A stretch of 6,403 bases of DNA from JALTID01 sp027004335 [NCBI: bacterium] (GTDB lineage: Bacteria; JALSQH01): assembly GCA_027004335.1 (NCBI GenBank), contig JALTID010000069.1:6275-12677 (forward strand), in the 5' to 3' direction. The position numbers were made by a program, and so were the translations under genes. The first letter of the stretch is position 1. Every line of letters starts with the position of its first letter. Shown here piece by piece: positions 1 to 2,180 of this stretch. The notes beneath the pieces were generated by a model. It did no database searches. It had not been told where the DNA came from and saw only the letters and a program-made list of their open reading frames with translations.

Positions 1-289
1 TCTCATCAGCTTCATTAAGTGTCGTAAGATATGGGTTTATGCCATTTTTTATCAATTGGGGAACAGACTCTCTCCCCATGGACTTGCCGATAAAAATTTC
101 TGAATCCCCTAAAATTTTCAAAATATCATCTGCCTCCGCATGGTTATGAGCACCCAGAACAGGATTCTCCATTTTTTTAACCCCTTGAACCTCCCCGTTC
201 AATACCTCATAGATGACAAAAATTGGACTCATCCCAAAATGAGTCATGGAGAGTTTTTTACCATCCTCAGTTCCAATAACTATCTTCAT
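1..289 (-). CDS. NifX/NifB-type dinitrogenase iron-molybdenum cofactor domain protein (3' end beyond window)
   Basis: This is the first 96 codons of a gene that runs off the left edge. The reading begins MKIVIGTEDGKKLSMTHFG and continues with an FVIYEVLNGEVQGVKKMENP strand, a conserved H-N-H-A-E-A-D-D-I stretch (about residues 48-56), a GDSEIFIGKSMG turn and a PQLIKNGINPYLT segment. This order matches the small Nitro_FeMo-Co fold (Pfam PF02579) of NifX, NafY and the NifB C-terminus, which bind iron-sulphur or iron-molybdenum cluster precursors. Stand-alone relatives of about 100-130 residues are common in anaerobes that do not fix nitrogen and have no settled role, so nitrogen fixation should not be inferred. 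The ATG overlaps the MFS stop as ATGA. A strong GGAGGAG site inside the end of the MFS gene sits six bases or less upstream, so translational coupling is likely. The family call is by eye. Confidence 0.85.
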   Translation of the reverse strand, partial: MKIVIGTEDGKKLSMTHFGMSPIFVIYEVLNGEVQGVKKMENPVLGAHNHAEADDILKILGDSEIFIGKSMGRESVPQLIKNGINPYLTTLNEADE

Positions 290-1464
290 CTTTCTCCTCC
301 TTCCCTTATCATTAAAAAAATTAAACCTGCACCTATCCCTGTGTAAGCCGCCACCTGGAAGGCCCCATTAAAACCAAACTTATCTATTAAAAAACCTATA
401 AGGGTGGGAGCAAGAGAAGCAAGAGCAAGGGAAAATGTTAGCATAACCCCAACTCCGGTTCCAGCTTTTTCTCCCACCAGATCTATTATAAAAGCATACC
501 TCACAGGAATAGTAAAAAACACAAAAAAACCCATAAGCATCAGGATAATAATAGATGGATGTCTGATAAAAAGAAGCAGGAGCAGTGAAGCTACTATGTA
601 TCCAAAAGATATCACCCTTTTTCTTCCTAACTTATCAGAAATTGCCCCACCAAGGGGTTGGGCTATCAATCCAGGAAGCAGCATGTAGGTAGTAAAAAGA
701 TTTGACTTAAATATACTATCCCCTTTTGCATAAAAATATGATGGCATAAAAGAGGAGACACCTCTGGAGAAAAAGGTGTTGATACTTGCCAGAAAAGCTA
801 CAAAGAGCAGAGTTATACTGAAGGTGCTGAAATATGACTTTTCTACAGGTTTTTCTTCTACACGGAGAAAAGATAAAACAAGAAGAGCCGTTACAACCGC
901 AGGAATCCAAATAAATTTAAACCCTTTTATGCCCGCTGTAGCAAGAATAACTCCTCCCAGAAAAGGTCCCATGAGGAAACCAAGAGAGCCTCCAATTCCA
1001 TGTAATCCCAGAACACCCCCCCTCATGGAAGATGGATAAGATGCGGTCAATATAGAAATCCCTTGAGGATGGTATGTGCTCAAACCAAGACCAATTAAAG
1101 TAGCTGCAAGAAGCATCAAATTATAAGTGGGAGCCTGGCTAAAAACAGTAAAGCCAAAACCAAGAATAATGAAACCTGTGACAAGAAGTAACTTTCTCAA
1201 TCCATGCTTCTCACCCATATGACCGGAGAAAGATTGTAGTGAAGCAGATATAACAAAAGGAATGGAGGTAAGTAATCCAAGTTGAAGATAAGTGAGATTA
1301 AATTTGCCCTTTAAAATAGGTAAAAGTGAAGGTGTAAGCATAGAATATGTATCATTAACAAAATGAGCAGTAATGGTAAGAGCAAGTACTCCCCCGGGAG
1401 CGGTCTTAATCAAAAGAGGGGTAGTTAGCTCTATTTTCTTTTCACTCTTAACTGCTTCTGCCAC
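286..1464 (-). CDS. MFS transporter, fosmidomycin-resistance (Fsr)-like branch
   Basis: This 392-residue protein is the usual length for a 12-TM major facilitator superfamily permease of the inner membrane. A motif-A-like loop, GHMGEKHGLRK (residues 81-91), follows TM2, and a second copy, ISDKLGRKR (275-283), lies in the matching loop of the C-terminal half. N-terminal AHFVNDTY (33-40), LLPILKGKFNLTYLQLGLLTS (47-67) and the YHPQG motif (131-135) resemble Fsr-type and related drug or small-molecule exporters. The substrate cannot be read from sequence. The start is GTG; GAGAGGAAG about eight bases upstream is a reasonable ribosome-binding site. The start overlaps the end of the MerR-like gene by 17 bases, and the stop overlaps the NifX-like ATG by four, so it sits in the middle of a three-gene operon. 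If the adjacent regulator works, it may sense the transported molecule; that is inference. Confidence 0.93.
   Translation of the reverse strand: MAEAVKSEKKIELTTPLLIKTAPGGVLALTITAHFVNDTYSMLTPSLLPILKGKFNLTYLQLGLLTSIPFVISASLQSFSGHMGEKHGLRKLLLVTGFIILGFGFTVFSQAPTYNLMLLAATLIGLGLSTYHPQGISILTASYPSSMRGGVLGLHGIGGSLGFLMGPFLGGVILATAGIKGFKFIWIPAVVTALLVLSFLRVEEKPVEKSYFSTFSITLLFVAFLASINTFFSRGVSSFMPSYFYAKGDSIFKSNLFTTYMLLPGLIAQPLGGAISDKLGRKRVISFGYIVASLLLLLFIRHPSIIILMLMGFFVFFTIPVRYAFIIDLVGEKAGTGVGVMLTFSLALASLAPTLIGFLIDKFGFNGAFQVAAYTGIGAGLIFLMIREGGER
294..301 (-). promoter_or_regulatory. Shine-Dalgarno site of the NifX-like gene inside the MFS 3' end
   Basis: On the minus strand AAGGAGGAG precedes the ATG at 289 with AAAG between. 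It lies within the last codons of the MFS gene (Arg-Glu-Gly-Gly-Glu-Arg-stop). The ATGA stop/start overlap follows directly. This fixes the start of the downstream gene and argues for co-translation. Confidence 0.85.
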
Positions 1465-1792
1465 GATATTTTCTTCCTCTCAGAGAGCTCTTGTTTTTGT
1501 AATAATCACACGATGCTCGTTTCTTATCATCACAGTTTTTATTCAATTCCCAGCAGTTCATTTTTTTTAGAACAATAGAGAGAGAATTAAGATTAAATCC
1601 TTCGGAATGGATCATTTCTCTTACGCAATTTATGAAATTAATATCTCCCACAGAATAGAGGCGCTGGCTGCTGATCCTGCGGGGTTCAATAATACCTTTT
1701 CTATCGTACAATCTTCATGTCTGGGGATGAAGATGTAATAACTTTGCCACTTCACCAATTCTGTAGTATCTTTTTTCCAGTTCTATTTTCAC
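1448..1792 (-). pseudogene. HspR-like MerR-family regulator with an in-frame TGA at codon 26
   Basis: Reading from a GTG at 1792 gives 115 codons including the stop, with one internal TGA (1715-1717). Before it lies YYRIGEVAKLLHLHPQT; after it comes RLYDRKGIIEPRR, then SQRLYSVGDINFI and an REMIHSEGFNLNSLSIVLKK helix. This is a complete MerR winged-helix domain, closest by eye to HspR-type repressors, whose HPQT-L-R-L-Y-E-R-K-G motif carries Leu where TGA stands. The tail has C80-W81-E82, C87 and C95, a Cys motif I recall from other MerR-like proteins. The frame is open on both sides and its TAA overlaps the MFS start by 17 bases, so this is either a recent single-base nonsense mutation, a sequence error or readthrough. 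A TTG two codons after the TGA could restart translation but would lose the first HTH helix. No clear Shine-Dalgarno site precedes the GTG. Family call is strong; functional state unknown. Confidence 0.8.
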
Positions 1793-1813: not shown

Positions 1814-1841
1814 ATTGTATCTTTATAACAATCATTGTCAA
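1814..1841 (-). promoter_or_regulatory. Sigma70-type promoter of the regulator-MFS-NifX-like operon
   Basis: On the minus strand a perfect -35 TTGACA (1836-1841) is followed after 16 bases by TACAAT (1814-1819, five of six matches). Transcription would start near 1807, about 15 bases before the GTG of the MerR-like gene. The short leader contains no obvious Shine-Dalgarno site. Confidence 0.7.
1828..1838. promoter_or_regulatory. Candidate operator: palindrome in the promoter spacer
   Basis: ACAAT-C-ATTGT is a perfect 5-1-5 inverted repeat that overlaps the -35 and runs into the spacer of the operon promoter. MerR-family proteins bind dyads between -35 and -10, so autoregulation is plausible. 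However, the arms are short, A+T-rich, and do not match the HAIR consensus of HspR well; only the CTTGA part of one half is present nearby. Confidence 0.4.
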
Positions 1842-1870
1842 GTTTTTTAGCAAAAAAAATAAATTTCAAA

Positions 1871-1898
1871 TAATTAAAAGGCAGGCTTTCAGCCTGCC
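1871..1898 (-). terminator. Intrinsic terminator of groES
   Basis: On the minus strand GGCAGGCT-GAA-AGCCTGCC forms a perfect 8-bp G+C-rich stem with a three-base loop, followed by TTTTAATTATTT. It begins six bases after the groES stop codon and ends the transcript before the regulator's own promoter. Confidence 0.93.
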
Positions 1899-1904
1899 AT
1901 GGAT

Positions 1905-2180
1905 TTACTCAACAATCTTCGCTAAAATGTCACCTTTCTGAACAATGAGATAATCCTCACCCTCAATACTTATTTCATTACCACTGTATTTTGCGTAGAT
2001 TACCTTATCACCGGCTTTAAAGAGATCCTTCACCTCTTCACTATCTCCCACTGCGATCACTTCACCTACCTGAGGTTTCTCCTTGGCAGTATCTGGAATA
2101 ATAAGACCTCCTGGAGTCTTTTTCTCTTCTTCTTCCAGTGGCTTAATCAACAACCTATCATCAATTGGCTGTACCTTCAT
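1905..2180 (-). CDS. groES: GroES (Hsp10/Cpn10) co-chaperonin
   Basis: The 91-residue product is slightly shorter than E. coli GroES (97) and typical for the family. It forms a heptameric lid on the GroEL ring in the cytoplasm and caps the folding chamber. Visible family features are the N-terminal strand VQPIDDRLLIKP (3-14), the mobile loop with TPGGLIIPDTAKEKPQ (22-37) that contacts GroEL, VGEVIAVG (38-45), KAGDKVIYAKYSGNEI (55-70) and the C-terminal GEDYLIVQKGDILAKI (74-89). The ATG at 2180 is chosen because AGGAGGAGG lies five bases upstream; an in-frame TTG at 2204 would put this site inside the gene. The usual groEL partner does not follow: a terminator comes directly after the stop, so the gene is monocistronic. 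A CIRCE-like promoter suggests HrcA-type heat-shock control. Confidence 0.97.
   Translation of the reverse strand: MKVQPIDDRLLIKPLEEEEKKTPGGLIIPDTAKEKPQVGEVIAVGDSEEVKDLFKAGDKVIYAKYSGNEISIEGEDYLIVQKGDILAKIVE

Follow-up and report, generated by a model that had tools for sequence, protein, structure and literature searches.

A single in-frame TGA was found at codon 26 of a MerR/HspR-like gene in a stretch of 6,403 nt, here called the window, from a bacterial draft genome (assembly GCA_027004335.1, 262 contigs, 80.2% complete; contig JALTID010000069.1, positions 6,275-12,677, forward strand). The stop is most likely the result of ordinary gene decay, and recoding of the codon is disfavoured. We consider it probable that the frame encoded a local, HspR-like autoregulator of an operon resembling the ORP and Mrp systems, that it came under relaxed constraint, and that it is now truncated. 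The features of the window are listed in Table 1.

Table 1. Features in and around the interrupted regulator gene (positions in the window)
Feature	Position	Strand	Remark
NifX-like Nitro_FeMo-Co protein	2..289	-	runs past window edge
MFS transporter	286..1464	-	overlaps merR end by 17 bases (1448-1464)
merR/hspR-like frame, GTG to TAA	1448..1792	-	interrupted at codon 26; winged HTH and Cys-Trp tail
87-aa TTG restart frame	1448..1711	-	start inside second modelled helix
In-frame TGA in the MerR/HspR-like frame (codon 26)	1715..1717	-	read from sequence
Sigma-70-like promoter, TTGACA-16-TACAAT	1814..1841	-	agreement with consensus only (11 of 12)
Possible operator-dyad remnant	1822..1842	-	left half 9 of 9, whole 12 of 18; 26/200 shuffles as good
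Terminator-like hairpin after groES	1880..1898	-	between groES and merR
groES (Cpn10), upstream gene	1905..2180	-	

Premature stop in a MerR/HspR-like frame

On the minus strand, the frame runs from GTG at 1792 through 25 codons to the TGA (1717-1715), and then through 88 sense codons to a TAA ending at 1448, with one internal stop and no frameshift. The TGA that an earlier note on this DNA had reported inside this frame is thus confirmed in the sequence, and the neighbouring ORFs of 392, 433 and 740 codons are open, as had been claimed. With X at the stop position, the frame scored 39.6 bits against the Pfam MerR_1 winged-HTH domain (cut-off 21.6). This match places it in the MerR superfamily and points to a real domain rather than a chance opening. 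Its best match in NCBIfam was HspR (NF047375), in agreement with the proposed HspR-like nature of the domain. The score of 62.5 bits was below the equivalog cut-off of 105, as were the scores of four intact relatives with the same best match (57.1-73.5 bits). The frame's codon-bias score of -0.03 was under that of every one of the 170 long frames (median 0.23). As 18 of the 81 short frames scored no higher, this measure decides nothing.

In 27 relatives, the column of the stop holds Leu (21), Ile (4) or Val (2). The position is therefore a conserved aliphatic one; the conserved hydrophobic residue expected there stood, but not the strict Leu. None of these 27 other family proteins had a stop within the MerR domain, and two stops flagged by the profile scan in G267 fall outside its open merR frame. 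The window's frame thus carries a stop in a conserved domain that is open among relatives, as a nonsense pseudogene does. No tandem repeat was found near the stop (1600-1860), which leaves the phase variation suggested earlier without support.

A structure was modelled from an alignment of six sequences with the TGA read as Leu. The read-through product was modelled as a winged HTH, with pLDDT block means of 80-93 over residues 11-70 (mean 72 for the whole model, in which the tail was modelled poorly). In this predicted structure, residues 23-31 form the second helix, and the stop falls within it.

Relatives of the regulator and their gene neighbourhoods

A family profile gave matches at E <= 1e-25 in at least 24 of 386 genomes sampled across the domain, one of them that of the window, with at most nine candidates scored per genome. 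In the phylum of G022, all nine genomes matched at the looser value of 1e-8, and six of them carry the Cys-Trp form. The relatives used for comparison were 27 proteins taken from 26 other genomes. No close relative of the regulator was returned by a search of genome contigs with the 87-aa fragment, from which the window's own or very near genomes were possibly excluded. The set contains two genomes of the window's phylum; the other one had no match to the regulator, and its MinD2 match covered only 49 residues. Neither search thus gave a near orthologue by which to date the stop. In the window's own genome only one other MerR_1 domain was found, which is intact (L001 1423-1731); the genes preceding it are, from their appearance, what we take to be pheT and an IHF/HU protein gene.

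Eight of the 26 other genomes carry the same kind of MerR beside MinD-type ATPases (below, linked genomes), and in seven of these there is also a distinct NifX-like hit; flanks were read up to about 8 kb (one region was 19 kb long) and less at contig ends, which qualifies the missing NifX and MinD neighbours in the other 18. For L153 and L168 the hits were weak only. In G022, G060, G061, G062, G063 and G066 the MerR is fused to a Nitro_FeMo-Co domain. The fused domain scored 59.2-65.7 bits in five of these and 136 bits in G066, where it is present in two copies in a frame that crosses an N stretch. In a tree of 28 rows, the window's protein grouped with the eight linked proteins and with the unlinked L163 and L165, at a support of 94/97, which is just under the mark of the tool, and the placement of long rows is unsure.

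In the window, the MFS gene separates the regulator from the NifX-like genes. Outside the window, the operon continues with another NifX-like gene and a pair of ferredoxin-MinD-type ATPases, then a FeS_assembly_P protein and a ferredoxin. As described in the earlier note, merR has a promoter and overlaps the MFS gene, although a promoter scan gave 7 sites in the scanned region against 3.8 in shuffles. The MFS gene finds its best match in the phylum's second genome at an identity of just 24%. Directly before the start of the window, inside the first NifX-like gene, are 10 consecutive N (L031 6265-6274).

Divergence of the regulator

The window's MerR has diverged unusually far from its NifX/MinD-linked relatives, which its MinD neighbours have not. 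Its identity to relatives of comparable depth was 0.379, compared with 0.532 for intact pairs, a difference of 0.154 (bootstrap 95% 0.076-0.236); this comparison was picked after the end branches of an 8-row tree had been seen. The same deficit was -0.039 for MinD1, -0.016 for MinD2 and 0.040 for NifX2 (interval includes 0), so that merR alone showed a significant excess among the four operon genes tested. Intact pairs numbered seven: L158 was paired with L162, and each of these two with L144, L147 and L167. The near-copies L145 and L146 were omitted, as was L148 (N run, split MinD1), and for NifX2 L158 was missing. In the 8-row MerR tree, the window's end branch was the longest (2.66, against 0-0.74 in the other seven rows), whereas its MinD1 and MinD2 end branches (1.06 and 1.01) were within the range of the others. 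One residue is inserted in the window's MerR and absent from all 27 relatives, and three columns that at least 92% of the other proteins conserve are broken.

This excess of amino-acid divergence speaks for relaxed constraint; it could alternatively be adaptation. About 0.067 nonsense changes are expected per missense change, or one nonsense in some 15 missense changes. A long neutral drift would be expected to leave more than the one stop found here, with no frameshift; most of the divergence would therefore have arisen while the frame was still translated, and the stop probably arose late.

Some observations argue against decay. L168 and L165, both open frames, are almost as deviant or more so: in the 28-row tree the window's end branch is second longest, behind that of L168, its leave-one-out profile score is the lowest of 28 only narrowly (85.7, lowered by the X at the stop, against 86.8 for L168), and L165 breaks four of the conserved columns. 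Also, Arg27, Tyr29, Gly33, Arg44, Cys80 and Cys95, which are present in 27 of 27 relatives, are all retained, and the tail is hardly less similar than in intact pairs. By region, the identities of the window's protein and of intact pairs were 0.48/0.60 (residues 9-25), 0.46/0.67 (27-47), 0.26/0.48 (48-74) and 0.37/0.40 (75-99).

The tail bears on the earlier suggestion of a restart at the TTG two codons after the stop. The product would have 87 residues, would lack the N-terminal HTH half and could serve as a dimer partner or a metal-binding remnant. All 87 codons from TTG 1711 are open, Cys80, Trp81, Cys87 and Cys95 are kept, and the tail is almost as alike as in intact pairs. However, such a protein would begin within the helix modelled at residues 23-31, which would leave the DNA-binding domain incomplete. 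The stretch from the stop to the tail is kept worse than that before the stop, and with the one other MerR_1 domain in this incomplete genome no same-family partner was seen. We regard this restart as improbable.

The main rival to decay holds that the TGA stems from an erroneous consensus call or from a minor strain in the draft, and that the regulator is fast-evolving yet working. The assembly is fragmented and incomplete with 10 N adjoining the window, a lone stop in a frame that is otherwise open resembles an error, and the read-through product could be modelled as a winged HTH. Against this, the stop hits the one gene, of four tested, whose excess divergence is significant. Such errors also seem uncommon in this genome, where no internal stop was found in 19 ABC_tran matches (14 over the cut-off, five below) or in 17 Radical_SAM matches. 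An error or strain variant is, in our judgement, unlikely, though clearly less so than the restart. A nonsense allele, already the leading option in the earlier note, is thus supported.

Reading of the UGA codon

Decoding of the UGA by a suppressor tRNA, as selenocysteine or by programmed readthrough would give a full-length regulator. One frame is interrupted here with coding sequence on both sides, and a decoding tRNA could be absent from the assembly of an incomplete genome. The translation machinery argues otherwise. RF2 was over the cut-off in both genomes of the phylum. No tRNA-Sec was over the cut-off (best 38.2 against 47 bits), absence being weak evidence in a genome that is 80.2% complete. 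Among 33 loci scanned, a sample of the genome, the Trp tRNA seen has the anticodon CCA, and the search for a UGA suppressor proposed earlier returned no tRNA with a UCA anticodon or other suppressor. Neither Cys nor Trp occurs at the column of the stop in any of the 27 relatives.

TGA is not over-represented among coding-flanked stops: in a 24% sample, it accounted for 13 of 47 in-frame stops flanked by coding-like sequence and for 56 of 180 long-frame ends. Most of the 47 are probably gene ends, with adjacent genes in the same frame. The window's own stop was below the thresholds of this count. The earlier view that a general reassignment of TGA is unlikely was borne out by the presence of RF2, by the TGA share and by the domain matches, none of which had an internal stop (0/36 together). 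Decoding of this UGA appears highly improbable.

A candidate operator

A dyad, CTTGACAAT-N3-ATTGTCAAG, was found with 0-2 mismatches upstream of merR in the six genomes with a fused regulator. In a whole-genome search that covered the eight linked genomes, it occurred at this level once in each of the six, at merR, and was absent in G182 and G267. At its loci (L144, L145, L146, L147, L148 and L167) it lies upstream of the gene for the MerR-CysTrp-NifX fusion. When the 220 bases upstream of the estimated start were scored for 27 relatives against single-base shuffles, the six reached 16-18 of 18 (0/200 shuffles each) and L166 reached 12 of 18 (4/200 shuffles); apart from G267, which has a form one base wider, the remaining relatives, including L158, L163 and L165 of the same clade, were not above shuffles. 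All six dyad genomes are from one phylum, so common descent accounts for part of this sharing.

At 3 mismatches, further sites turned up in the linked genomes (G060 1, G063 3, G066 1, G182 1), and a reversed-pattern control at the same level gave 1 in G182 and 3 in G267. The window's own genome had 2 such sites and G001 had 5 (control 0 and 1), one of the latter at 2 mismatches. G267 carries a 40-base palindrome (L162 1717-1756) with two perfect 19-base arms round 2 bases, which has the same core, one base wider, and sits between merR and the divergent NifX-like and MinD genes.

In the window, the left half of the dyad and the promoter are kept, and the right half does not fit. As 26 of 200 shuffles reached its score, the support for this site comes from its left half and its place over the -35 box. 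G182 (L158), with an open MerR, likewise has no right half, so the missing half in the window is supporting rather than decisive. The excess divergence, the three broken columns, the insertion and the missing right half do not agree with the earlier statement that nothing else is decayed.

Comparison with known regulators and proposed role

The geometry of the relatives' dyads is HAIR-like. The HspR operator HAIR is given as CTTGAGT-N7-ACTCAAG in an excerpt of its source (PMC6102357), and by that excerpt its outer arms and spacing, CTTGA-N11-TCAAG, are equal in the relatives' dyad, whereas the inner arm bases are GT/AC in HAIR and CAAT/ATTG in the dyad. Unlike HspR, the MerR of the linked clade stands at NifX/MinD genes and has a Cys-Trp tail. 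Among solved structures, those closest to the intact L158 protein are the MerR-family regulators GlnR/TnrA (4r4e, E 4.8e-13), in a match that covers residues 3-74 only, with the Cys-Trp tail outside.

In the portion of PMC6345978 consulted, the ORP operons and MrpORP of Desulfovibrio vulgaris combine dinitrogenase-cofactor (NifX-like) domains with P-loop Fe-S ATPases, as is the case here. The orp operons of D. vulgaris are described there as under sigma-54 control, in contrast to the sigma-70-like promoter and MerR/HspR-like gene of the window. Scores against the MrpORP family were 54.5 and 47.1 bits, below its cut-off of 450.

In the relatives, an HspR-like MerR with a Cys-Trp tail heads an operon for NifX-like proteins and MinD-type ATPases (ORP/Mrp-like; handling of Fe-S or related clusters). 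We propose that it binds the dyad across the -35 box of the promoter from which it is itself expressed, and represses it. In the lineage of the window, the MerR has diverged faster than its MinD neighbours, and the right half of the dyad is absent. The TGA would then have cut the MerR to 25 residues, inside the second HTH helix, presumably with loss of function. The near-consensus promoter would drive MFS-NifX-NifX-MinD-MinD constitutively, freed from MerR control.

More tentatively, the relatives may form an undescribed family of one-target autoregulators, Cys-Trp HspR-like MerR proteins with a NifX-type fusion in one phylum, which would monitor the state of an ORP/Mrp-like Fe-S operon and each bind one dyad of HAIR geometry per genome. 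The window's lineage would be losing this switch, both protein and operator, while keeping the operon. A literature search joining MerR with NifX, Nitro_FeMo-Co or dinitrogenase-cofactor returned no relevant paper, although it covered open-licence PMC articles only and says little on novelty. The stop codon itself is ordinary, and the MerR-NifX fusion with a single operator is more interesting. Following up the stop yielded a regulator-operator pair that can be tested for NifX/MinD (ORP/Mrp-like) clusters. With a cofactor-binding domain fused to a DNA-binding protein, a metal cluster may be sensed directly.

The upstream groES gene

HspR, a heat-shock repressor, has chaperone genes among its targets, for example dnaK and clpB. 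The only chaperone gene near the window's merR is groES, which has its own promoter-like site and terminator-like hairpin. It looks like a unit separate from merR, given the hairpin that follows it and merR's own promoter. Immediately before the -35 box of the groES promoter-like site, at 2250-2258 of the minus strand, is TTAGCACTC, which we take to be half of a CIRCE element with the other half degenerate.
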